DNA of 64,000 bases, taken from Brachybacterium sp. YJGR34 (GTDB taxonomy: Bacteria; Actinomycetota; Actinomycetes; Actinomycetales; Dermabacteraceae). Shown one piece after another: positions 1,133-51,424 of this stretch (positions are counted from its first letter, which is position 1; each line of letters begins with the position of its first letter). The notes beneath the pieces were generated by a model, which did no database searches, was not told where the DNA came from, and saw nothing but the letters and a program-made list of their open reading frames with translations. The DNA lies in assembly GCF_003347015.1 (NCBI RefSeq), contig NZ_PNFB01000003.1, positions 1 to 64,000 of the forward strand. The letters are read 5' to 3'. The translations under genes were made by a program, and so were the position numbers.

Positions 1133-1189
1133 GCCGCCGCCGCGGTGCACCCTTGACCGATGCCGGGTCGGGGGCGTTCGCTGGTCGCC

Positions 1190-1519
1190 ATGAGCACACC
1201 CTCCGTCCCTGAGCCCGTCGCCTCCTTCATTGAGGCCGTCAACCGTCATGACCAGGCAGGATTCCTCGGCGCCTTCACGGCCGACGGGGTCGTCGACGAC
1301 TGGGGCCGGGAGTTCACGGACCCTGCCGCGATCACCACCTGGAGCGACCGGGAGTTCCTCGGCGCCCAGGGCGTCCTCACGCCGGAGGAGGTCACGGTGG
1401 ACGGCGACCGCATCACCGTCGTCGGCGACTGGCGCAGCACCCACGCCAACGGCCGCAGCTCCTTCGCCTTCGACGTGGTCGGCGACCGGATCGCCCGGAT
1501 GACCATCCGCGAGGGCTGA
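1190..1519 (+). CDS. SnoaL/NTF2-like small protein
   Basis: A 109-residue protein with the NTF2/SnoaL layout: an N-terminal helix (FIEAVNRHDQAGFLGAF), the conserved TADGVVDDWGREF turn and four beta strands ending GDRIARMTI. The fold is used by ketosteroid isomerase-like enzymes and by many non-catalytic ligand-binding proteins. No function can be assigned. The start was chosen at ATG 1190; an in-frame ATG at 1160 would add ten residues. Neither has a clear ribosome site, so translation may be weak or from a leaderless message. It is convergent with the sensor kinase gene that follows, 13 bases away. Confidence 0.7.
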   Translation: MSTPSVPEPVASFIEAVNRHDQAGFLGAFTADGVVDDWGREFTDPAAITTWSDREFLGAQGVLTPEEVTVDGDRITVVGDWRSTHANGRSSFAFDVVGDRIARMTIREG

Positions 1520-1532
1520 GCCGCCTTCGCCC

Positions 1533-2639
1533 TCAGGGCTCCGGCGTGAACGGCAGCCTGAGGTGGAGCCGCCCGCCGCCGTCGGGCCCGGCCTCCAGGA
1601 CCAGCGTCCCGCCGCGCGCCTCCGCCCGGGCGCGGTGGCGGGCCAGCCCGGAGAGCACGGGCGCCCCGGGGCCCGGTCCGCTCCCGTCGTCGTCGACGAC
1701 GAGGTCGAGGATCCAGGGCGGGTCCGGGGCCGGCTCGACCTCGGCGCGCACGACGACGCGCGCGGCCCCGCCGTGCTTGAGCGCGTTGGTGACGGCCTCC
1801 TCGACCGTGTAGACCACCACCAGCCGGTCCAGCAGCGGCAGCAGTGCGCGATGGGCGTCCACGTGCGCCTGCATTCGGGGGCCGAGCTCCACGGTGGCGG
1901 CCACGCTCGTGGGCAGGCGGTCCAGCAGCGCACGGATCGCCTGGTAGGTGCCCAGATCGGCCCCCGAGGGGAAGAGGCTGTGGCTGAGCGATCGCACGTG
2001 CTCCTCCCGCAGCTCGTCGAGGTCCTCCGCCCACCCGCGCAGCTCCCCCGCCCGCGCGCTCCCTTCCTCGGCCTCCGACGCGGCCTGCTCGAGACCGCTG
2101 GCGATGACGACCAGGCGGTGCTGCACGGTGCCGTGGAGCCGGTCCGCGACCATCCGGCGCACCCGCAGCTCCTCGTCCTCGAGCTCGGCGACCGCCCGGC
2201 GCGCCGTGCGCTCCTCGGCCTCGCGCCGCTCCCGCTCGCGGTCCTCCCGCTCCAGCAGCGCGGCGACCAGGAACCCGGCTCCGAGCGCGACGGAGTACCC
2301 GAGCATCCCCGTGGCCCAGACGGCCACCCCGCCCGGAGCGCCCGGCTCGACGGTGGTGGCCGGCAGCAGCAGCGCCGCGCGCACGAGCGCCTGGATCGCC
2401 GCCAGCGCCGGGGCGAGCACGAGGCGCCACCTCCAGGAGCGCACCCGCATCGCCAGCAGCATCACGGCCGCGACCAGCACGAGCCCGACCACGAGCGTCA
2501 CCCCGCCCACCCACCACATCAGGGCGGCGGCAGACCAGGCGGTGCTCCACTCGGTGGCCTGCTCTGCCACGAGGAGAGCGAAGGCGGCCACGTTGAGCGT
2601 CGCGACCAGGGCCGCGATCGGTGCCCGATGCCCCCTCAT
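1533..2639 (-). CDS. Membrane sensor histidine kinase (NarL-system type)
   Basis: A 368-residue kinase with four predicted membrane spans in residues 8-128 and a charged coiled coil at about 130-160. A dimerisation/phosphoacceptor motif DRLHGTVQHRL places the likely phospho-histidine at H169. A C-terminal HATPase domain has an N box (EEAVTNALKHGG) and a glycine-rich lid (GSGPGPGAPVLSGLARHRAR). The first phosphoacceptor box deviates from the usual LHDxxQH form by having glycine after the histidine. It has almost no extracellular loop, so it probably senses a membrane or intracellular cue. Its ATG overlaps the response regulator stop (ATGA), so the two are translationally coupled. The pair is divergent from the SipW operon and is its most likely regulator. 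Confidence 0.85.
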   Translation of the reverse strand: MRGHRAPIAALVATLNVAAFALLVAEQATEWSTAWSAAALMWWVGGVTLVVGLVLVAAVMLLAMRVRSWRWRLVLAPALAAIQALVRAALLLPATTVEPGAPGGVAVWATGMLGYSVALGAGFLVAALLEREDRERERREAEERTARRAVAELEDEELRVRRMVADRLHGTVQHRLVVIASGLEQAASEAEEGSARAGELRGWAEDLDELREEHVRSLSHSLFPSGADLGTYQAIRALLDRLPTSVAATVELGPRMQAHVDAHRALLPLLDRLVVVYTVEEAVTNALKHGGAARVVVRAEVEPAPDPPWILDLVVDDDGSGPGPGAPVLSGLARHRARAEARGGTLVLEAGPDGGGRLHLRLPFTPEP

Positions 2640-3325
2640 CGCTGCCAGGTGCGGCCGGTCTGCTCGAGGAAGGTCAGCACCGCGCGCACCCGGCGGTTCG
2701 CCCCCTCGCCGTCCACATCCAGCCGGCGGTAGATCGACAGCAGGTGGCTCTCGACGGAACGCACCGAGAGGTGCAGCCGGTCGGCGACCGCCTCGTTCGA
2801 GAGCCCCTCGGCGACCAGGCGCAGCACCTGGAACTGCGCGCTGGTCAGCCCCGCGACGGGAGTGCCGGCGCGCGGCCGGGACCGCTGGACGAGCGAGGGG
2901 TCGATGACCACATCGCCGTCGGCGGTCGCCGCGATCGCGCCCAGCAGCACGTCCCGGGTGAAGGTGGAGCGCTTGGAGAGATAGCTCCACGGCTCGCTGA
3001 CCTGGTCCTGGACGGAGAGGAACAGTCCCATCACGTCGAGGCTGGACAGCAGCAGGACGGCCAGGCGCGGATCCGCCCGCTGCAGCTCGAGCCCCAGGGC
3101 GATGCCGTTGCCGTCCCCGAGGTTCACGTCGAGCAGGGCCACGTCCGTGCTGCGCGGGGCGATCGCCAGGCGCGCGGCGGCGGCGCCGTCGAGCTCGTGG
3201 ACCACGCGCATGGTCGGGGCCTCGTCGATCGTGCGCACCAGCATCGAGCGCATCAGCGCCTCGTCCTCGACGACGCTCACACGCAGGGGGCGCGGCCTCG
3301 CCCGGCCGTCGACCCTGCTGTGCAT
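2636..3325 (-). CDS. NarL/FixJ-family response regulator
   Basis: A 229-residue response regulator. The receiver domain contains the acidic pair (VVEDEALM), the phospho-acceptor D66 in VALLDVNLGDGNG and a lysine at KRSTF. A C-terminal LuxR-type helix-turn-helix (LTSAQFQVLRLVAEGLSNEAVADRL...SVRSVESHLLSIYRRL) binds DNA. The start at 3325 has a strong GGAGAGGA site; an upstream in-frame ATG at 3349 is less well placed. The gene leads a two-gene operon with the kinase. It lies back to back with the SipW-substrate operon across a 137-bp gap containing inverted repeats that could be its operators. Confidence 0.9.
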   Translation of the reverse strand: MHSRVDGRARPRPLRVSVVEDEALMRSMLVRTIDEAPTMRVVHELDGAAAARLAIAPRSTDVALLDVNLGDGNGIALGLELQRADPRLAVLLLSSLDVMGLFLSVQDQVSEPWSYLSKRSTFTRDVLLGAIAATADGDVVIDPSLVQRSRPRAGTPVAGLTSAQFQVLRLVAEGLSNEAVADRLHLSVRSVESHLLSIYRRLDVDGEGANRRVRAVLTFLEQTGRTWQR

Positions 3326-3415
3326 CGCGCGTCCTCTCCGAGCCACCACGGCTGTTCATGCGTGCTTCCACGCAGGGTCCCGTCCCGAGGCGGTCTCCCG
3401 GTCGTTCCATTGTGG

Positions 3416-3436
3416 TGCCAGCTCCACCGGCTGGCA
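3416..3436. promoter_or_regulatory. Inverted repeat upstream of the SipW operon
   Basis: A perfect 7-bp inverted repeat TGCCAGC/GCTGGCA with a 7-bp spacer lies 27 bp before the first SipW-substrate gene. A second one (TGCGTG-CTTC-CACGCA, 3359-3374) lies further upstream. Either could bind the divergently encoded LuxR-type response regulator. This is inference only. Confidence 0.35.
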
Positions 3437-3462
3437 AAGACACCGCAGCGATGGAGGATCCC

Positions 3463-4059: not shown

Positions 4060-4697
4060 CCGGGCGCCGCGGCGCCCGGGCGCTGGGCCTCCTCGCGGGA
4101 GGCCTGGCACTCGGCGTGGCCGGCTCGCTGACCGTCGCCTCGTGGCAGGATTCCGAGGCGGCGGCCACCACCTTCGTGGCCGGCACCTTCGAGACCCAGT
4201 CCCAGGGTGCCGGCGGCGACTGGGCGCATCACGCCCCGGGCTCCGCGGCGAGCCTGTCCGCGGACCTCAGCGACCTCGCCCCGGGCGGCACCTGGGACGC
4301 CCCGACCGCCGGCGCATCCCACTACGGGGCGCTGAACGTGCGCACCGCACGGGGCAGCACGCGCGGCGGCGAGGTGCTCCTGGAAGGGGTCACCGCCGAA
4401 GGCGCCCTCGCGGACGCCGTCGAGTACCGGGTGGTGGCCCGCAGTGCCTCCTCGGCACCGTGCACCGCCGCGGACTTCGGTCCCGACGCCCGCTACCTCG
4501 CCGGCGGGCCGGACTCCTACGTCGACCTCGGCGCACCGCTCGACGCGACCAGCGCGGAGGTGGGCGCCGACGGCGCGGACCCCCTCGGGCTGTGCCTGGA
4601 CCTGCGCGCGGCCGCCCCGACCACCGGGGCGACCGGCGCGGAGGTGCAGGGCACCAGCGCCCGGATCGACCTGACCCTCACCGTCACCCAGCTCTGA
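4056..4697 (+). CDS. SipW-dependent-type exported protein, second copy
   Basis: A 213-residue paralogue in signal architecture. RRGARALGLLAGGLALGVAG leads to VASWQDSEAAATTFVAGTF, which aligns with the first copy's ASWTDTEVAEGSFAAGTF. The mature region is richer in glycine and alanine and contains two cysteines (in SAPCTAADF and LGLCLDL) that could form a disulfide; the first copy has none. The GTG start overlaps the previous stop (GTGA), giving translational coupling. Ten bases separate its stop from the signal peptidase start. It probably forms part of the same extracellular structure. Confidence 0.72.
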   Translation: MTGRRGARALGLLAGGLALGVAGSLTVASWQDSEAAATTFVAGTFETQSQGAGGDWAHHAPGSAASLSADLSDLAPGGTWDAPTAGASHYGALNVRTARGSTRGGEVLLEGVTAEGALADAVEYRVVARSASSAPCTAADFGPDARYLAGGPDSYVDLGAPLDATSAEVGADGADPLGLCLDLRAAAPTTGATGAEVQGTSARIDLTLTVTQL

Positions 4698-4707
4698 GGA
4701 GACCCCG

Positions 4708-5271
4708 ATGACCGTCACCGCCCCCGCCCTCCCCGCCGCGCCGGCAGCCCGTCGGCGCCCCCGGCACCGCACCGCCCTGCGTCTGCTGGGCGATCTGCTG
4801 CTCGCCGCCGCGGCCGCCCTGGGCCTGCTGTGCATGGTCCTCGCCCTGCTCACGGGGGTCTTCGGGTTCCGCGTGATGCTCTTCAGCTCCGGGTCGATGG
4901 AGCCCTCGATCCCCGTGGGCTCCGCCGCACTGGTCGCCCCGACCGCGGCGGCCGACGTGGAGGTCGGGGACGTCGTCACCGTGGACCGCGCAGCGGGAGA
5001 GCTGCCCGTCACCCACCGCGTGGTGGCCGTGGAGGGCGCCGACGACCCGGCGCAGCGGCTCCTGACCCTGCGCGGGGACGCCAATGCGCAGAACGATCCC
5101 ACCCGCTATCTCGTGGACGAGGTGGGACGGGTGGTCGTCTCCGCCCCCGGCGTCGCGCCGCTGGTCGCCTCGGCCGGGACTTCCCGGGTCCTCGCCCCGC
5201 TGGGGGTCGTGGCGGCCGGCTGCGTGGTCTGGGCCCTGTGGCCCCGCGGCGGCACCGGGAGCCGGGAATGA
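4708..5271 (+). CDS. SipW-like (ER-type) signal peptidase I
   Basis: A 187-residue membrane peptidase. There is one N-terminal span (about 27-52), the catalytic serine S63 in SSGSMEPSIPVG, then H103 in VTHRVV in the place where ordinary bacterial type I peptidases carry lysine. RGDANAQND supplies the conserved aspartate, and a second span lies near the C-terminus. A Ser-His catalytic pair is the signature of the archaeal/ER-like SipW class, which in Bacillus processes TasA and TapA. Here it sits among three genes with SipW-type signals, which are its obvious substrates. It has a good GAGGAGA ribosome site, and its stop overlaps the next ATG (ATGA). Confidence 0.88.
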   Translation: MTVTAPALPAAPAARRRPRHRTALRLLGDLLLAAAAALGLLCMVLALLTGVFGFRVMLFSSGSMEPSIPVGSAALVAPTAAADVEVGDVVTVDRAAGELPVTHRVVAVEGADDPAQRLLTLRGDANAQNDPTRYLVDEVGRVVVSAPGVAPLVASAGTSRVLAPLGVVAAGCVVWALWPRGGTGSRE

Positions 5272-6242
5272 GCACCGTGCGGCGGATGATCGCACTGCTG
5301 GGCCTCGCCCTCGCGCTGCTCCTCGGGGTGCCCGCACTCTCCCACGCGGAGGGGCCGCAGCAGGTGGTCCGCGGCCAGCACCTCGAGCTGTTCGCGGAGG
5401 GGCTCGAGGGCGCCCATGCCCTCACCCCCGGCGCCACCGCGCGCTGGGCGGTGCGGGTGGCGGCGCCGGAGGTCGAGGAGGGCACCATCCACCGGGAGCT
5501 GATCGTGGACGGGGACCTGGCCGCCTGGGTGCAGGTCTCGGTCGCGTCCTGCACCCAGCGCCCCGCGGCGAGCTGCGCCGGGAACCGGCCGCTGGTCGCG
5601 GAGCACACCCCGGAGGCCGGCGCGGCCATCGACCTCGGGCAGCAGGACGCGCGCGCCGAGGACTGGCTGCTGGTGCGGATCACCCTCGATGAGGACGCGC
5701 CTCCGGCCGCCCAGGGTCTCTCGGGATCGCTGCGCCTGGTGGCGCACGGCGCCGGGGAGCAGATCTCCGTCGCCCCCGAGGAGGAGGGGCCGGGCACCGA
5801 GGACGGCGGGCCGGGCACCGGCGGTCCCACGTCTCCCGCGGACCCGGACGGCGACTCCTCGGATCCCGCGGGCTCGGACGGCGACTCGGCGAGACCCGCG
5901 GACCCGGGCACCGGCTCGGACACGGGCACGGCGGGCACGGGCTCGTCGGCCGACGGCGACACGGGCTCCGGGACCTCCGGGGCAGGGGGCTCGAGCGGAT
6001 CGTCGTCGGCCCCCGCGGGCGACGCCACCTCCGTCGCGACCGTGCGACCCGTCACGAGCTCCGCCACCGGCGGGAGCTCCGCCGAGGGCGGTCTCCTGGG
6101 CCGCCTCGCCGCGACCGGCACCGACCCGCGTCTCCTCCTGCTCGCCGCCCTCGCGGCGCTGCTGCTGGGAGCCGCGCTCCGCGCCCGCCGCGAGCCGGCA
6201 CGGGCCGGCACCACCGCACACCGAGGAAGGAGCCGATCATGA
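5268..6242 (+). CDS. LAxTG-anchored surface protein of the SipW operon
   Basis: A 324-residue secreted protein. A conventional signal peptide (MIALLGLALALLLGVPALSHA) precedes a folded domain of about 140 residues with two cysteines. A long Ser/Gly/Asp/Thr-rich linker follows, then LAATG, a hydrophobic span (LLLLAALAALLLGAAL) and a basic tail. LAxTG is the recognition sequence of class E sortases in high-GC Gram-positives, so the protein is predicted to be covalently linked to peptidoglycan. No sortase is encoded in this window. It overlaps both neighbours by ATGA junctions, so it is part of the same translational unit. By position it could be the wall anchor for the SipW-processed subunits, as TapA is for TasA. 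Confidence 0.72.
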   Translation: MSTVRRMIALLGLALALLLGVPALSHAEGPQQVVRGQHLELFAEGLEGAHALTPGATARWAVRVAAPEVEEGTIHRELIVDGDLAAWVQVSVASCTQRPAASCAGNRPLVAEHTPEAGAAIDLGQQDARAEDWLLVRITLDEDAPPAAQGLSGSLRLVAHGAGEQISVAPEEEGPGTEDGGPGTGGPTSPADPDGDSSDPAGSDGDSARPADPGTGSDTGTAGTGSSADGDTGSGTSGAGGSSGSSSAPAGDATSVATVRPVTSSATGGSSAEGGLLGRLAATGTDPRLLLLAALAALLLGAALRARREPARAGTTAHRGRSRS

Positions 6243-6784
6243 GGACCACCGAGACCGCACCGCGGGGGCTGCGCGGCCGAGCGGCCCTAGCCGCTTCGCT
6301 GCTGCTGGCCCTCGTGCTGGGCGCCTCGGCCGTGCCGACGCAGCCGACCGACGCCGCCTGGATCTCCGAGGAGGCCGGCACGCTGACGGCGACGGCGGGG
6401 TCCGTGGCCGCCCCGGACACCACCTGCACCGGGCGGAGCGCCGCTCCCAACCTGCTGACCCTCACCCCGCCGGACGAGGGCCTCGAGGTCACCGCCTACC
6501 GGGTGACCGTCCTGGTCCAGGACGGGGACGGCACGGTCCCCGGCGGCTGGCAGAGCGGCACCACCAGCGAGGGATACCCGCTGCTGCCGGCGAACACGCC
6601 CACCGTCGTGCCCGCCTCGACCACCGCCGTCGCCTGGGGGATCTCCGGGGATTGGAACAACGAATGGAAGGGCATCGTGACGGTCGAGGCGCTGGGCCCG
6701 GGCGGGTGGAGCTCGCAGAGCGTGCAGCACGACTGGACCATCGGCTTCGATTGGCTCGGCATCGGCTACGGCACCTGCACCTGA
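6239..6784 (+). CDS. Exported protein, third SipW-type substrate
   Basis: A 181-residue protein. A hydrophobic segment (AALAASLLLALVLGASAV) is followed by DAAWISEEAGTLTATAGSV, matching the W-x(2)-E and A-G-T/S pattern seen after the signal regions of the two earlier copies. The mature part contains two cysteines (DTTCTG near the start, YGTCT at the end) that could tie the chain ends together, plus Trp-rich beta-like segments. Its ATG overlaps the previous stop. It is the last gene of the operon; the convergent VOC gene ends 23 bases on. I recognise no enzymatic motif. A minor or capping subunit of the extracellular structure is one possibility. Confidence 0.65.
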   Translation: MRTTETAPRGLRGRAALAASLLLALVLGASAVPTQPTDAAWISEEAGTLTATAGSVAAPDTTCTGRSAAPNLLTLTPPDEGLEVTAYRVTVLVQDGDGTVPGGWQSGTTSEGYPLLPANTPTVVPASTTAVAWGISGDWNNEWKGIVTVEALGPGGWSSQSVQHDWTIGFDWLGIGYGTCT

Positions 6785-6806
6785 CGCAGTGCCGGGAGGT
6801 GCACGC

Positions 6807-7283
6807 TCAGCCCCGGGCGGCGGCCTCCAGCCGCTCCACGTCGAGCTTCTGCTGGGTGAGCATCTCCGCCGTGACGGCGGCGGCCTGCGGGCCGGCCAGC
6901 AGGTCGTAGAGCTGCTGCGGGATCACCTGCCAGGAGACGCCGAAGCGGTCCCGGCACCAGCCGCATTGGGATTCCTGCCCGCCGTCCGCGATCAGCGCAT
7001 CCCAGAGGCGGTCCAGCTCCTCCTGGCTGCCGACGGTCACCTCGATCGAGGCCGCCTCGGTCTGCGGGAACATCGGGCCGCCGTTGAGGAGGACGTAGGG
7101 CACCCCGGCCAGCTCGATCTCGACCGTGAGCGATTCCCCCGCGGGCGGCGAGCCCGGGGAGTTGTCCGTGGGTGTGTAGGGCATCGACCCCACGATCCGG
7201 GAGTCCGGGAGCAGAGAAGTGTAGAACGCGGCGGCCTCGTCCACCCGGCCGTCGAACCAGAGGCATGTGCGGATCCGTGTCAT
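6807..7283 (-). CDS. VOC-family (PhnB/glyoxalase-like) protein
   Basis: A 158-residue protein of the PhnB/3-demethylubiquinone-methyltransferase-like branch of the VOC superfamily. It starts MTRIRTCLWFDGRVDEAAAFYTSLLPDS and contains the GGPMFPQTEAASIEV strand and the diagnostic CGWCRDRFGVSWQVIP block. Family members bind a metal or small ligand in a cup formed by paired beta-alpha-beta-beta-beta units, and many have no known substrate. It lies 31 bases downstream of the AHSA1 gene on the same strand, so the two are probably cotranscribed, a frequent pairing in actinobacteria. Confidence 0.85.
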   Translation of the reverse strand: MTRIRTCLWFDGRVDEAAAFYTSLLPDSRIVGSMPYTPTDNSPGSPPAGESLTVEIELAGVPYVLLNGGPMFPQTEAASIEVTVGSQEELDRLWDALIADGGQESQCGWCRDRFGVSWQVIPQQLYDLLAGPQAAAVTAEMLTQQKLDVERLEAAARG

Positions 7284-44905: not shown

Positions 44906-45571
44906 GTGCTGTCCCTCCCGGACCACCTGCGCCCGTCGGCCGAACGGCTCTTCGGTGACCGGCTCGAGCTCGCCGAGCGCTTCGTCGACCTGCTCGCCGA
45001 GCAGGGGCCCGAGCGCGGGCTGATCGGTCCCCGTGAGGTCGAGCGGCTGTGGGAGCGGCACCTGATCAACTGCGCCCTCCTGGCCGACGCGATCCCCGCG
45101 GGGGCGCGCTTCGTCGCGGACGTCGGCTCCGGGGCGGGGCTGCCCGGGGTGGTCCTCGCGATCGCCCGGCCGGACCTGCGCATCGTGCTGATCGAGACCA
45201 TGCAGCGCCGCACCACCTGGCTCGAGGAGGTCGACGACCACCTGGGGCTCGACCTCGAGGTGGTCCGTGCCCGCGCCGAGGAGCTCCACGGTCGGCGCAG
45301 CTTCGAGGTGGTCACCGCCCGGGCGGTCGCGGCTCTGGACAAGCTCGCCCGCTGGACGCTGCCGCTGGTGGCCGACGACGGTGTTCTGCTGGCCATGAAG
45401 GGATCCTCGGCCGCCGAGGAGGTCGAGAAGGCCCGGCCCGTGCTGCGCCGGCTCGGCGGCGAGGACCCGACCGTCACCCGGTACGGGGTGGGCGAGGTCG
45501 AGGTTCCTACTACAGTGGTCCAAGTGCGTCGTCGAGCGATGGCGACCAGGAAGGGAGATCCACGTGGCTGA
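44906..45571 (+). CDS. rsmG: 16S rRNA (guanine-527-N7) methyltransferase
   Basis: A 221-residue SAM-dependent methyltransferase of the RsmG/GidB family. Visible motifs: EVERLWERHLINCALLADAIP, the SAM-binding ADVGSGAGLPGVVLAIARPD, VLIETMQRRTTWLEEV and TARAVAALDKLARW. It modifies G527 of 16S rRNA; loss gives low-level streptomycin resistance in several genera. GTG start eight bases after jag. Its 3' end overlaps the parA start by eight bases. Confidence 0.95.
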   Translation: MLSLPDHLRPSAERLFGDRLELAERFVDLLAEQGPERGLIGPREVERLWERHLINCALLADAIPAGARFVADVGSGAGLPGVVLAIARPDLRIVLIETMQRRTTWLEEVDDHLGLDLEVVRARAEELHGRRSFEVVTARAVAALDKLARWTLPLVADDGVLLAMKGSSAAEEVEKARPVLRRLGGEDPTVTRYGVGEVEVPTTVVQVRRRAMATRKGDPRG

Positions 45572-46487
45572 GCAGCGCGATGAGTCCTCCCCGGGACAGG
45601 GCGCGATGGAAGACACCCCGCTCATGCGCGAGCTCACCCGGGACCACGCCCGTCGCAGGAAGCTCGAGGGTCTGGAGTTCGGGCATCCGGACACCACACG
45701 CATCATCACCATCGCCAACCAGAAGGGCGGGGTCGGCAAGACCTCGACGACGGTCAACCTCGCGGCCGCCCTGTCGATGGGCGGGCTCGAGGTGCTGGTC
45801 ATCGATGCGGACCCCCAGGGGAACACCTCGACCGCGCTGAGCATCGAGCATCATGCCGAGGTGCCGAGCATGTACGAGGTCCTCGTGGAGTCCGCTCCGC
45901 TGTCCGATGTCGTGCAGGACGTCCCGGACATGCCGCACCTGCACTGCGCCCCGGCGACCATCAACCTCTCGGGCGCGGAGATCGAGCTGGTCTCCCTGGT
46001 GGCCCGCGAGAACCGTCTGCGCAACGCGATCCGGGAGTACCTCGAGCAGCGCGAGGAGCGGGGGGAGGTCCGCCTGGACTACGTGCTCGTGGACTGCCCG
46101 CCGTCCCTGGGCCTGCTGACCGTCAACGCGCTGGTCGCGGCCCGTGAGGTGCTGATCCCGATCCAGGCCGAGTACTACGCGCTCGAGGGACTCTCGCTGC
46201 TGCTGAACAACATCGACCTGATCCGCCAGCACCTCAATCCCGAGCTCGTGGTCTCCACGATCATGCTGACCATGTTCGACGCCCGTACCCGGCTGGCCTC
46301 ACAGGTCGCCCAGGACGTGCGTGACCACTTCCCGGAGCAGACGCTCGAGACCTCGATCCCGCGGTCCGTGAGGATCTCCGAGGCGCCGAGCTACGGCCAG
46401 ACCGTGCTGACCTACGATCCGGGATCCAGCGGTGCGCTGGCATACCGGGCGGCGGCCTACGAGCTGAACACACGACCCGCTCCCTGA
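45564..46487 (+). CDS. parA: Chromosome partitioning ATPase ParA (Soj)
   Basis: A 307-residue deviant-Walker ATPase. The P-loop is IANQKGGVGKTSTTVNLAAAL with the signature lysine; further motifs are LVIDADPQGNTSTAL and DYVLVDCPPSLGLLTVNALVAA. It binds DNA non-specifically as an ATP dimer and moves ParB-parS complexes. The GTG at 45564 has AAGGGAGA upstream. The N-terminal 45 residues before TRIITIAN are a charged extension common in actinobacteria. parB follows 84 bases downstream. Confidence 0.96.
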   Translation: MAEQRDESSPGQGAMEDTPLMRELTRDHARRRKLEGLEFGHPDTTRIITIANQKGGVGKTSTTVNLAAALSMGGLEVLVIDADPQGNTSTALSIEHHAEVPSMYEVLVESAPLSDVVQDVPDMPHLHCAPATINLSGAEIELVSLVARENRLRNAIREYLEQREERGEVRLDYVLVDCPPSLGLLTVNALVAAREVLIPIQAEYYALEGLSLLLNNIDLIRQHLNPELVVSTIMLTMFDARTRLASQVAQDVRDHFPEQTLETSIPRSVRISEAPSYGQTVLTYDPGSSGALAYRAAAYELNTRPAP

Positions 46488-46571: not shown

Positions 46572-48524
46572 ATGACGCAGAAGCGAGGACTCGGTCGAGG
46601 ACTCGGTGCCCTGATCCCGGGCGCCGGCTCGACGCCTGCGCCGGATCCCGAGCTGCGCACCCGCACCCGTCCGTCCCCCGAGCCCGAGACGCGTGCGTCC
46701 ACCCGTCCGGTGGACATGTTCTTCTCCGGCGAGGAGGTGCGGGCCGACGGCGCCGCGCAGCGTGGGCGCCCCGGTCCCCGTGACCTGGCGACCGACATGG
46801 CCCGCGCCGCGGCACAGCGCCGCGAGCGGGCTGGTGCGCGCAGCACGGCCGCGGCGGAGGCGGAGAGCTCCCAGGTCGCCGCGGAGCCGGCCTCGACCAC
46901 CCCGACGCGCAGCACGAGCCGCTCGACGAAGGCCACGGCGAAGAGCGCCCCGAAGACCGGCTCGAAAAGTGCACCGAAGACCAGCGCGAAGAGCGCCCCG
47001 AAGACCAGTTCGACGAGCGCACCGAGTGCCGGCTCGAAGAGCGCGGGGAAGGCCTCGGCGAAGAGTGCGCCCACGGCTGCCTCCTCCACGAGTTCCTCGA
47101 AGCGTGCTGGGGCCGCGAAGAGCGAGTCCGGCACCCGCCCGACTGCCAAGAAGTCCTCCAGCGCCTCGTCGTCGCGGAAGGCTTCGACCACGAGCGGCGG
47201 CAGCCGGTCCGCGAAGGCTGCGGTGTCCTCCGGGGCGGCGGCTCCGGCCCCGCAGAGCGTCGAGGAGCAGACGTCTGCGCAGCAGCCGGCCCCGACGCCC
47301 CCCGAGGTCTCGGCACCGACTTCGCCGCCCGCTCCCGTGGCGGACGACGCTGCCGCGACCCTGCCGACGGATCCGGCCACGGACGACACCCCCGTGGTGG
47401 ACGTCGAGCCGGTCGCCTCCACCCCGGTGCGCGCCACCGCGGACGAGCCCGCTCCCGCCGCGGAGAAGGAGCCGTCCTCGGCAGCGCCCGTGGCATCGAC
47501 CGAGATCCCTGCAGAGGCCGGCACCGCCGTGGAGGCCGACTCGTCGGCGGAGACGGAGTCCGCGCCGACGAGCCCGGAGCCCGTGAGCCCGGAGCCCGCC
47601 ATCGCGGAGCGCACCAGCCCGGAGCCCGCCACTGCGGAGCCCGGGCGTTCGGAGCAGGCAGAGGACTCCTCCTCGTCGCGACTGCTCAGCGTCCCCGGGG
47701 CGGAGTTCGCGGAGATCCCGATCCATGAGGTGCGCGAGAACCCGCGCAATCCCCGCACCCTGTTCGACGAGGACGAACTCGACGAGCTCGCGTACTCGCT
47801 GCGCGAGGTCGGCGTGCTGCAGCCCGTGGTGGTCCGCCCGATCCCGGTCACGGAGGACGGCGAGTCCTTCGAGCTGGTCATGGGCGAGCGCCGGTGGCGT
47901 GCCGCCCGCCGCGCCGGCCTCACCTCGATCCCCGCGATCATCCGCGAGACGAGCGATGACGACCTGCTGCGGGATGCGCTGCTGGAGAACCTGCACCGCA
48001 CCCAGCTCAACCCCCTGGAGGAGGCGAACGCGTACCAACAGCTGCTGGACGACTTCGGCTGCACCCAGGACGAGCTCGGCGAGCGGATCGGCCGTTCCCG
48101 CCCGCAGATCACCAACACGCTCCGTCTCCTGCGCCTCCCCGCTCTCGTGCAGCGTCGCCTGGCCAGTGGTGCGATCAGCGCGGGACACGCGCGCGCCCTG
48201 CTCTCCCTGGACGATCCGGCGCTGATGGAAGAGCTCGCCCAGCGGATCGTGTCCGAGGGTCTGTCGGTGCGTGCGGTCGAGCGTCTCGTGGCTCGCGGCG
48301 AGCTGCAGCAGCCGACGCGGACGCCACGGCGCAGCACCTATGATCCCCATGTGGTGGAGCTGACCAGTCGGCTCTCGAACCGCCTCGAGGCGCCCGTCCG
48401 CATCGACGTCGGCAAGCGCAAGGGTCGGATCACGCTGGAGTTCTCGAACCTCGAGGATCTGGAGCGGCTCGTGGAGAACATGGGCCTGGACGCCACGCTG
48501 CTGGCCTCCGACGAGCACGCCTGA
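46572..48524 (+). CDS. parB: Chromosome partitioning protein ParB with a very long disordered linker
   Basis: A 650-residue ParB, about twice the usual 300-380. Residues 1-20 are the ParA-contact peptide (MTQKRGLGRGLGALIPG). The conserved core begins only at about 379. It holds box I (RENPRNPRTLFDEDELDELAYSLREVGVLQPVVV), the CTP-binding GERRWRAARRAGL (438-450), the helix-turn-helix ELGERIGRSRPQITNTLRLLRLP and the C-terminal dimerisation domain. Residues 80-375 are low complexity. One lysine-rich part has SAPKT repeats resembling histone H1/HupB tails (about 120-220); a following acidic Pro/Ala/Glu part runs to 375. The ATG at 46572 gives the canonical N-terminus; the in-frame ATG 30 bases upstream is unlikely. 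About 18 parS-like sites follow the gene. Confidence 0.95.
   Translation: MTQKRGLGRGLGALIPGAGSTPAPDPELRTRTRPSPEPETRASTRPVDMFFSGEEVRADGAAQRGRPGPRDLATDMARAAAQRRERAGARSTAAAEAESSQVAAEPASTTPTRSTSRSTKATAKSAPKTGSKSAPKTSAKSAPKTSSTSAPSAGSKSAGKASAKSAPTAASSTSSSKRAGAAKSESGTRPTAKKSSSASSSRKASTTSGGSRSAKAAVSSGAAAPAPQSVEEQTSAQQPAPTPPEVSAPTSPPAPVADDAAATLPTDPATDDTPVVDVEPVASTPVRATADEPAPAAEKEPSSAAPVASTEIPAEAGTAVEADSSAETESAPTSPEPVSPEPAIAERTSPEPATAEPGRSEQAEDSSSSRLLSVPGAEFAEIPIHEVRENPRNPRTLFDEDELDELAYSLREVGVLQPVVVRPIPVTEDGESFELVMGERRWRAARRAGLTSIPAIIRETSDDDLLRDALLENLHRTQLNPLEEANAYQQLLDDFGCTQDELGERIGRSRPQITNTLRLLRLPALVQRRLASGAISAGHARALLSLDDPALMEELAQRIVSEGLSVRAVERLVARGELQQPTRTPRRSTYDPHVVELTSRLSNRLEAPVRIDVGKRKGRITLEFSNLEDLERLVENMGLDATLLASDEHA
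46944..47090 (+). repeat. SAPKT-type coding repeat in parB
   Basis: Degenerate tandem units encoding KSAPKT(G/S)xK, built on AAGAGCGCCCCGAAGACC. Such repeats expand and contract easily, so linker length probably varies between strains. Confidence 0.75.
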
Positions 48525-48886: not shown

Positions 48887-50758
48887 TGTTCCACGGGAAA
48901 CGATGCCACGGGGGTCGGTAGCGAAGGACAGTGTGTCTGCACTGGCATGTCCGATGGGGAGGGCGGACTCGTTCGGTGTCATGCGTTCTACGTGAAACTC
49001 CTCGCGTGTGCGCTGTCGCGTGTCAGCGGACCGGTGAGCATCCGGCCGCTGCTCGTCCAGAGCACCTTCTACCCATCCGATTGCGCGCGATGCCGTTTCC
49101 CGTGAAACGCTAGCGAGTGGTCGCCGTCCCGTGCTGACGGAAGGCCCCAGCCCTCGACCGGGCACGAGCGGGCCTCGCTACCGCACCTCGGCGTCGCAGC
49201 CGTCGGGTGCATCTGCGTTCCGCCCCCGGGCGTTCTATGTGAAACATGGGCGCTGCGAGTGGCATGCGCTGCAGTAGTACGGCAGAAGGTAGCGCGGGAA
49301 TCAGTTGACCTCGATGACGTGTCGCCCAGTACCGTCGAAGCGAGTTCCACGTGAAGCATGGTGGAGGAGCTTGCGCACTGGCGGCATGCAAGGGGTCACG
49401 GTTTCACGTGAATCGTGCACTCGAGCCGTCGTACTTCGCTCGTGCCATGGCCACGCTCACCGTGCGCGGTGCCACGTGAAACCCTCGCGGGCCGACGAGC
49501 CAGCTGAGCAGTACCGCCCGTCCCCGTCCCCGCTCCTGCGTTGCCAGGGCTTGAGTGCGGAAGCTGGAGCGATTGTCCTCGGACCCGCCACTGGTGCGCG
49601 CTGCTCAGAGTTTCCCGTGAAACACGGTGAGGGCAGGCGAGCTTCCGATTCCCGGCTTCCCGTGAAACGCGTTGACCCCCGGATGGCCGGCCAGTGCCGT
49701 CAACGGTGGTACCCGGCACTCGCGACCGGTGCGGATTCTGGTAGTGGACGTACACGTGCCGATCTGAGGAGCTCGTCGCGAGGCGCGCGAGTGCGCGATC
49801 GCGGACCTCTGGCCTCGAAAGATTCCTGCCATGCTCGCCATGCTGACGCTGCTACGTCGTCTCCGACGGCGTTCTACACTGCCCGATCGTGTTTCCCGTG
49901 AAACTCCGTGCAGGCCTACCCCAGAGGCCGAGAGCGTCATGCTGCGATTCTGTCGCGACTCCGCGTCCGGGGATGGAGGGAGGTTCACGTGAAACTCTCG
50001 GCGTCATCGCCACGAGACGGCCTCCGATGCTGAGGCGTTGAGGCCAGCTCCTTGCAGAGATGCATCCGGCCCGACGGGACACTGGGGAGTGTCGCTGGTC
50101 GTAGTGATCAGTGGTCACTTTACGGCCCGTGTCTCCTCGGTTCCCCGTGAAACATCAAGAGATCTCCGTACTGCGGCGTGTCCGGGGCTTGTCCACCTTT
50201 GACAACAGCAGGTGCGTGCCTTGGCGTCCGGTACACGCATGTTTGTCGTGAAACGTTGAGGCTGCGGTGCGTGTTGAGCACGAGCTGGCGCAAAGCGTGG
50301 CTCATCAAGGAGTGGCGGACATCACATGCTTTGCGTGCAGCCAGAGCGGATCGGCATGAGCGGCCCGCTGGGGAGGACGTTTCCCATGGAACCCCCCAGT
50401 TCGCGGCGCGACAACACTTCCGCACGCAGTGTTTCACGCGAAACGGCGCAGTGATCACAGCACGGTTCTGCAGGAAGTGCGGTCCATCTCGCGTTCACCG
50501 CGTGCGAGTTTCACAGTGAACGCGTGGCGAGGAGAGGTCGACGCCGCGACCCGAGCGGTGCATGAACAGAGGGTGGCGAGCAGATGGCGGCCACGCTCCG
50601 CTGCGCTCTGTCACGTGGAACAGGCGCCGGTCGTGATGCGGTGCGGAGCGGTTGTGGATACTCGCGGCGCAGCTGTGCACAGTGTGCGTAACTCTGTGGA
50701 CAACGCTCTTCCTTCCGGTGGATGACAAGAGCGTCGAGAGGATGTTCCACAGGAAACC
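48887..50758. repeat. Array of about 18 parS-like ParB binding sites
   Basis: 16-mers resembling TGTTTCACGTGAAACA start at 48887, 48984, 49094, 49231, 49343, 49400, 49468, 49609, 49654, 49890, 49981, 50139, 50240, 50378, 50430, 50507 (one-base insertion), 50607 and 50743. The best, with 14 of 16 matches, are 49609, 49890 and 50430; most score 12-13, and 50378 scores 11. None is perfect. Spacings run 45-236 bp, mean near 110. Ten sites keep GTGAAAC intact on the right half with a decayed left half, so the array has a common orientation. It directly follows parAB, making it a strong candidate for the chromosomal centromere. Confidence 0.82.
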
Positions 50759-50913
50759 GGAGATGCTGCAACCCGGCGTAGGAGCATCACTGCAGGTCAG
50801 GAGCCTTCAGTGAGTGCCTTCGCGGTACCATCCATCCACACACCACTGTGGATAACACTGTGGACGGAGGCGTGGCAGGATGTGGACGGCGGTGTGGACA
50901 GGCATGTGGACAA
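50653..50913. promoter_or_regulatory. Phased DnaA-box cluster
   Basis: TGTGGATAC (50653), perfect TGTGGACAA (50695), perfect TGTGGATAA (50847), TGTGGACGG (50859), TGTGGACGG (50881), TGTGGACAG (50893) and perfect TGTGGACAA (50905), all on one strand. Start spacings in the last five are 12, 22, 12 and 12 bp. The first pair (50847/50859) is the inverted form of the doublet found at 39895 and 41357. This is denser than the dnaA-dnaN gap and may be an origin subregion or a DnaA titration site. Confidence 0.7.
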
Positions 50914-51019: not shown

Positions 51020-51424
51020 CTACGGTCGCCAGACGGCTCGGGGACCGAACTCCTCATCGATCTCGTGCTTGGGCAGTGCGCCGCTGCGTCGATGCACCAG
51101 TTTCCAGGGCCCGGGGAGAGACGTCTCCTCGCCCGCCGGGGTGCGGCCGTCCAGGCGCTCGACCGTCGGCGTGGCAGGGTCGGTGGTCCCCGCCGTCGCA
51201 GGCAGCGCGCCGATCCATGTCGGCAGCACCTCGACCTGCAGTTGGTCGAGGATCTCCTCGGAGGGATCCTCGACGAGGAGTGTGGTCACCTCGGTGCCCC
51301 AGCGCCGACCGAGCTCCAGGAGCACGGTCGGCGCCGGACGGGAGGGCCCCGCCCAGTCGGCGCTCACGAGGACCACCACGGGGGCGCCCTCGTCCGGCAG
51401 GGGCGGCGTGGACGGGGTCCTCAT
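51020..51424 (-). CDS. Thioredoxin-fold protein lacking both active-site cysteines
   Basis: A 134-residue thioredoxin-like protein. The strand and active-site loop read VVVLVSADWAGPSRPAPTVLLELGRRW, so the WCGPCR of thioredoxin is WAGPSR: both catalytic cysteines are replaced. The cis-proline region is kept (VEVLPTWIG). A C-terminal extension of about 50 residues follows. It cannot be a disulfide reductase by the normal mechanism, so it may be a binding or scaffold protein. It lies 23 bases downstream of trxB, exactly where trxA is expected in actinobacteria, and no catalytic thioredoxin is encoded in this window. Confidence 0.82.
   Translation of the reverse strand: MRTPSTPPLPDEGAPVVVLVSADWAGPSRPAPTVLLELGRRWGTEVTTLLVEDPSEEILDQLQVEVLPTWIGALPATAGTTDPATPTVERLDGRTPAGEETSLPGPWKLVHRRSGALPKHEIDEEFGPRAVWRP

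Follow-up and report, generated by a model that had tools for sequence, protein, structure and literature searches.

ParB is now seen as a CTP-gated clamp whose loading takes place at parS, and for this step the palindromic consensus is commonly regarded as optimal. In Brachybacterium, the only centromere detected in the genus avoids the perfect palindrome while ParB keeps its parS-type residues, which raises a clear question: does clamp loading have its optimum at tight binding, or at fast turnover with intermediate affinity?

A packed array of imperfect parS sites after parB

The window, by which we mean the whole stretch of 64,000 nucleotides from Brachybacterium sp. YJGR34, was scanned with TGTTTCACGTGAAACA, the 16-bp parS consensus, as reference, and 17 16-mers matching it at 11-14 of 16 positions were located between 48887 and 50758, the first of them about 360 bp past parB. 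The features of the locus are as follows.

45564..46487, plus strand: parA, beside parB; AAA_31 (5.3e-54) and CbiA (3.2e-23) domains in Pfam
46572..48524, plus strand: parB; HTH_ParB, ParB_N and ParB_C domains in Pfam, conserved domain at 47688-48521
48887..50758, no strand: parS array of 17 imperfect sites with at least 11/16 matches
48887..48902, plus strand: parS-like site TGTTCCACGGGAAACG, 13/16
48984..48999, plus strand: parS-like site CGTTCTACGTGAAACT, 12/16
49094..49109, plus strand: parS-like site CGTTTCCCGTGAAACG, 13/16, the commonest core type of the genus
49231..49246, plus strand: parS-like site CGTTCTATGTGAAACA, 12/16
49343..49358, plus strand: parS-like site AGTTCCACGTGAAGCA, 13/16
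49400..49415, plus strand: parS-like site GGTTTCACGTGAATCG, 13/16
49468..49483, plus strand: parS-like site GGTGCCACGTGAAACC, 12/16
49609..49624, plus strand: parS-like site AGTTTCCCGTGAAACA, 14/16
49654..49669, plus strand: parS-like site GGCTTCCCGTGAAACG, 12/16
49890..49905, plus strand: parS-like site TGTTTCCCGTGAAACT, 14/16
49981..49996, plus strand: parS-like site AGGTTCACGTGAAACT, 13/16
50139..50154, plus strand: parS-like site GGTTCCCCGTGAAACA, 13/16
50240..50255, plus strand: parS-like site TGTTTGTCGTGAAACG, 13/16
50378..50393, plus strand: parS-like site CGTTTCCCATGGAACC, 11/16
50430..50445, plus strand: parS-like site TGTTTCACGCGAAACG, 14/16
50507..50522, plus strand: doubtful degenerate site AGTTTCACAGTGAACG, 10/16
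50607..50622, plus strand: parS-like site TCTGTCACGTGGAACA, 13/16
50743..50758, plus strand: parS-like site TGTTCCACAGGAAACC, 12/16
50653..50913, minus strand: five DnaA-box-like 9-mers, three exact (TTRTCCACA) and two with one mismatch

The initial annotation had described a dense array of about 18 imperfect sites in noncoding DNA beside parAB. The array itself is borne out, with no site above 14/16, as are 17 of its members; the eighteenth, at 50507, reaches only 10/16, its halves being apparently 1 bp apart. Between 48500 and 51000 the scan returned 11 sites with at least 13 matches, 16 with at least 12 and 17 with at least 11, compared with 0, 2 and 6, respectively, in the remainder of the window. 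Random first-order Markov DNA of matched composition (2476 bp, 64.6% GC, 500 draws) held on average 0.54 sites with at least 11 matches, 0.08 with at least 12 and none with at least 13, and dinucleotide shuffles of the window (n=100) held 0.01 sites with at most three mismatches, against 11 observed. Across all 3,993,751 bases of the assembly (44 contigs) the only matches with at most three mismatches are the same 11, all within the array. The perfect 14-bp core is absent from the entire assembly, which thus lacks a typical near-consensus parS. Sites are spaced by 45 to about 240 bp, and inspection of these spacings by eye gave no clear signal of helical phasing.

The gap after parB looks noncoding, as had been proposed: of its seven largest ORFs six were tested, none of them with a Pfam match, and it aligns little among relatives. 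No RNA family reached the gathering score between 38000 and 54000. An ORF on the minus strand at 51023-51424 appears thioredoxin-like by eye, without a Pfam match.

parA and parB are adjacent, and ParB displays ParB_N, HTH and C-terminal dimer domains (Pfam, solved relatives), with the Caulobacter-type ParB 6t1f as best PDB match. We infer the ATG at 46572 as the start of parB, within an ORF listed from 46542. ParB_N is preceded by some 370 N-terminal residues (46572-47690) that form an extension, rich in Ala, Ser, Pro and Thr and of low complexity by eye. The gene stops at 48524, with dnaA 7-9 kb upstream and dnaN, recF and gyrB farther out (dnaA and rsmG assigned by Pfam, the other three by eye); judged by this distance to dnaA, the 16-bp parS motifs lie close to the origin, as in chromosomal centromeres. 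The contig, which carries dnaA, rsmG, dnaN, recF, gyrB and two tRNA genes, does not resemble a plasmid with a packed centromere, and two relatives with such arrays (L011, L027) are complete chromosome records. GC skew in a relative, meant to place the origin, was dominated by gene strand.

Conservation of the array in Brachybacterium

The named relatives, with ParB domains up to 96% identical, belong to Brachybacterium, family Dermabacteraceae. In each of the 14 Brachybacterium loci with a name (L005-L017, L027) parS sites cluster most densely after parB, where 11-16 of them reach at least 12/16 and none reaches 16/16. Within the family, GTTNCNCGTGAAAC was matched in 44 of 47 genomes; the remaining three are 74-88% complete and also without a ParB hit. 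Our detailed set comprised 42 of the 47 genomes, namely 33 of the 38 from Brachybacterium (the other five had no usable ParB hit) and nine from five other genera. Each of the 33 Brachybacterium genomes in this set contains 10-17 sites of at least 12/16, in agreement with the conservation expected in relatives, and in 32 of them (L086 excepted) all but three sites lie within 3.2 kb past parB; these three may be chance matches.

In L086 (genome G017) the gap contains two inverted IS21-like copies, at 1157-3462 and 4652-6957, one between parB and the array and the other splitting the array into six and eight sites; IstB and Mu-type transposase domains were found by Pfam in the plus-strand copy.

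Alignment of the gap with five close relatives is limited to the DnaA-box block and a handful of 19-33 bp pieces, against an identity of 82-88% in the parB domain and 78-86% on the trxB side in the same species. Since the DNA between the sites hardly aligns even among close species, the sites are kept or renewed individually. Grouping of orthologous sites by ungapped flanks gave 422 groups from 435 sites, which is a sign of flank divergence and not a count of independent origins. Spacing in the genus is regular, with a median of 139.5 bp, a coefficient of variation of 0.44 against 0.87 under uniform placement, and only 14 of 393 inter-site gaps below 50 bp where 105 were expected.

That the sites are imperfect throughout might suggest a centromere in decay, or noncoding DNA that matches parS by chance; with 16 sites of at least 12/16 against 0.08 expected, and regularly spaced arrays in 33 of 33 genomes despite unconserved DNA in between, we consider this hardly credible. 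Because the array is far beyond chance, conserved and confined to the gap, we read it as a ParB-loading centromere, and on the sequence evidence the predicted chromosomal ParB centromere is very probably this one.

The DnaA-box consensus is TTRTCCACA, and the cluster of such boxes at 50653-50913 overlaps the array at its distal end. Counted over the 3.6 kb that follow parB, boxes of the type TTATCCACA, TTGTCCACA or TTTTCCACA number two or more in 30 of the 33 Brachybacterium genomes, one in two genomes and none in L086 with its inserted elements. Between species the gap aligns chiefly in this block, and boxes are also found around dnaA. The cluster could be an element of the origin, or a separate block for DnaA binding or titration.

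One strong defect per site

The regularity of the defect goes beyond what the initial annotation had noticed. The perfect core, GTTTCACGTGAAAC, accounts for only five of the 435 Brachybacterium sites, in two of 33 genomes. When half-sites were re-paired at random within genomes, the expectation was 56.4 perfect cores, never fewer than 39 in 2000 draws, in 28.8 genomes, and independent columns under the same detection cut gave 53.9. Four of the five perfect cores belong to genome G007 (L098), where T5-to-C cores number five and A7-to-C cores are absent; without this genome, one perfect core remains against 49.9 expected from independent columns. Likewise, among eight Brachybacterium genomes hand-picked across the ParB tree, four perfect cores, all of L098, were seen against 17.8 expected. 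The 435 sites come from related genomes and do not represent independent events.

Core mismatches number 0 in five sites, 1 in 217, 2 in 196, 3 in 14 and 4 in three. T5-to-C alone, which is known as a natural variant, was classed as mild and every other mismatch as strong, a split that was chosen after inspection of the data and on which the perfect-core tests do not depend. In 331 of 435 sites there was then exactly one strong mismatch, where column permutation gave 181.8 (144-215); 39 sites had no strong mismatch, as compared with 127.1 (108-147), and 24 of these 39 are found in a supported clade (L094, L096, L097, L098, L103), where they make up 24 of 60 sites. Position 7 is changed in both halves in two of the 435 sites, where 35.6 were expected. 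The commonest core is of the GTTTCCCGTGAAAC type (82/435), and in 159 sites the CACGTG centre is intact and the defects fall at positions 3 and 5. Sites with two mismatches do not regularly keep a perfect half, and neither half is perfect in 122 of 435, so the pattern is most safely put as roughly one strong defect in each site rather than one perfect half. Defects in Brachybacterium are thus far more even than under independent decay: sites free of strong mismatches are avoided, a single one is the norm, and sites with two or more are less frequent. In the nine genomes of the five other genera, by contrast, depletion is absent, with 52 of 115 sites perfect against 55.6 expected and strong mismatches distributed 77/33/5 against 78.7/30.3/5.5.

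The main rival to selection for such sites is drift among sites that are good enough: redundant sites above an affinity threshold would be neutral, and GC-biased mutation would erode the perfect core. In fact, most single changes run from A/T to G/C in this GC-rich genus, and with redundant sites a threshold alone would cap strong defects and even them out. Counted per side, A7-to-T (5), T3-to-G (3) and T5-to-A (1.5) are also no commoner than the perfect core (5). A7-to-C as the single change, however, occurs 41 times per side, and the base make-up of the gap (C.308, A.173) would by simple arithmetic allow a ratio to perfect cores of about 1.8 to 1; a neutral plateau accordingly predicts about 23 perfect cores, a figure that leaves out kinship and an unusual mutation spectrum, where five are seen and one without L098. 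Among GC-rich relatives (GC of the fetched regions only), perfect cores are kept in G109 (73%, 8/9), G062 (72%, 3/3) and G063 (74%, 3/3), but not in G091 (74%, 0/6) or G092 (73%, 0/9). We regard drift as a serious possibility that is nonetheless somewhat unlikely.

Packing had been considered unusual for a chromosome, which does not hold: Myxococcus xanthus has 22 sites in 3 kb (available part of PMC3899335), and 8-13 sites per 2.5 kb were found at seven of 40 surveyed loci of other families. The dense arrays that G109 (8/9 perfect) and G187 (12 perfect cores in 2 kb) carry in other families demonstrate that density alone does not demand weak sites. Nor was the suggested trade of affinity for number upheld, since Brachybacterium has 13.2 sites per genome (435/33) and the other genera, nearly half of whose sites are perfect, 12.8 (115/9). 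What is unusual is the imperfection, not the packing. Recombination, slippage or restriction might remove palindromes that are perfect or repeats that are identical, as packed identical 14-mers could recombine; given the CACGTG palindrome retained in 159 sites, and perfect cores kept at up to nine per array in other genera of the family and at 12 in G187, we judge avoidance at the DNA level very unlikely.

Two orientation tests, whose P values ignore kinship and the fact that two tests were made, gave 161 of 290 adjacent pairs in the same orientation against 146.3 (P 0.03) and the better half facing inward in 183 of 323 sites against 161.4 (P 0.01); the signal is weak, and an orientation code in Brachybacterium was not retained. 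Among the open-access literature matches listed, nothing was found that deals with parS in Brachybacterium or with perfect parS being avoided, and the one paper with both terms mentions parS only generally in its available part (PMC4255298).

The reading residues of ParB

Specificity in ParB has been assigned to positions that in Caulobacter are R173, T179, A184 and G201, of which R173 and G201 denote the parS type (available part of PMC7383237). In Caulobacter numbering, all 33 Brachybacterium ParB rows (one read by eye) have R173, T179 and G201, with R or K at 184, and are therefore of the parS type. R173 and G201 are also present in all nine genomes of the other genera (179 being S in two and M in one) and are common to 35 of 40 survey loci, those where the motif was found.

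A ParB that has come to prefer a non-palindromic optimum such as GTTTCCCGTGAAAC would explain why this type is the commonest. Residue 177, T in 24 Brachybacterium genomes and S in nine, tracks site quality, sites without a strong mismatch amounting to 10 of 323 with T177 and 29 of 112 with S177; nevertheless, L100 has T177 and six of its 10 sites lack a strong mismatch, and the association comprises only 1-2 independent pairs. With R173 and G201 as elsewhere, and defects also at positions 3 and 5 of sites with an intact CACGTG, a shifted reader seems to us improbable. A ParB substitution as the cause of weak sites was likewise discarded, as none separates the groups and residue 177, the one that correlates, fails in L100 and has the same few pairs behind it.

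Asymmetric sites elsewhere in the order

The order as grouped by the genome database comprises 248 genomes, 19 of them in the family of Brachybacterium; a perfect core was found in 193, an A7-to-C core in 54 and a T5-to-C core in 134. Three f15 g37 genomes have no perfect core and six (G092), seven (G133) and six (G198) A7-to-C cores, and G185 and G251 each have five with no perfect core. The congeners of G251 (G103, G168, G194) have 8, 10 and 7 perfect cores and no A7-to-C core, and the recognition helix of G251 equals that of G103 except for R/K at 184, a further point against the shift in reading considered above. T5-to-C sets without a perfect core were found in G144, G157 and G232 of f13 g29, whose remaining genomes have 1-3 perfect cores, and in five f14 g19 genomes (G059, G091, G132, G184, G210). 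Site orientations in f13 g29 are 7:1 in G144, G157 and G075, 9:2 in G273, 7:3 in G232 and 1:9 in G090, the last reversed relative to parB; in G185 they are mixed. Shared descent or local duplication could lie behind much of this pattern.

At L150 and L166 of f15 g37 eight asymmetric sites lie upstream of parB in a mirrored order (<<<<>>>>), which is the order of G092 and G198 in this genus, and at L140 (G118, f13) six identical asymmetric parS sites stand in tandem at 5847-6002 with 28-bp spacing. In family f8 (L112-L116), a perfect parS core is missing from 12 of the 13 genomes that were searched. The sites near parB have the symmetric core GTTCCACGTGGAAC at three of five loci, whereas those of G115 are degenerate in other ways and G053 is without a site of at least 12/16.

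A putative loading site of intermediate strength

Based on the sequence comparisons, we hypothesize, with a probability of roughly 0.6, that intermediate strength is maintained at the sites because it lets ParB clamps load and then leave fast. Selection would keep each site intermediate, often with one half good and the other weakened; the good half would anchor a ParB dimer, contact with the weak half would be only brief, and the CTP gate would then close and the clamp slide off. parS would then act as a fast-turnover loading catalyst and not as a tight anchor, and about 13 such sites, typically some 140 bp apart, would provide the loading flux. Spacers between half-sites abolish the stimulation of CTP hydrolysis by ParB, and protomers seated on the two halves have been proposed to clash and thereby to drive clamp closure and release (both from the available part of PMC8494293). 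In Pseudomonas, sites with one intact arm do bind, more weakly than perfect sites (PMC4368675, in its accessible text).

Singly weakened asymmetric parS might even be an evolved alternative centromere design at an intermediate optimum, where binding would suffice to recruit ParB and yet let the closed clamp go. It would have arisen repeatedly in the order while the known reading residues stayed the same in ParB, and its asymmetry may direct loading, as would be allowed by the co-oriented sites of f13 g29 (four of the six genomes at 7:1 to 9:1) and the mirrored ones of f15 g37; we consider this broader proposal unlikely. Ready comparisons are offered by dozens of natural arrays, by those other genera in the family that have perfect sites, and by G251 versus G103, G168 and G194.

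Comparison with known systems

Like the ParABS systems of Bacillus, Caulobacter, Streptomyces and Corynebacterium, the locus has parA-parB near dnaA, a ParB with R173 and G201, and sites similar to TGTTTCACGTGAAACA; unlike these canonical chromosomal systems, the best site of Brachybacterium sp. YJGR34 is only 14/16 and the sites are packed in 1.9 kb. The full NBS, the site of Noc, has a symmetric CCCGGG centre. The changed centre CCCG of Brachybacterium resembles half of an NBS, whereas its ParB lacks the Q173 and R201 of Noc (available part of PMC7383237), having R173 and G201, and both halves are non-A at position 7 in only two of 435 sites.

An asymmetric T5-to-C site, TGTTCCACGTGAAACA, has already been used as parS (PMC8299390, as far as its available text goes). 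The array of M. xanthus is likewise close to parAB, in about 3 kb, and its 22 sites occur in forward, reverse and palindromic forms, in contrast to Brachybacterium with a consensus, TGTTCCACGTGGAACG, whose core is palindromic (same part of PMC3899335). In Pseudomonas aeruginosa perfect palindromes stand beside sites with one intact arm, and defects cut binding, more so in CACGTG; its strong sites near oriC are those that segregate, while the Brachybacterium array is without a strong site (PMC4368675, same text). Finally, GTTTCAC has been recognized as a half-site in half-parS binding, which involves isolated half-sites across the genome and narrow ParB peaks (available part of PMC7022226), whereas the sites of Brachybacterium have both halves, one of them usually weakened.
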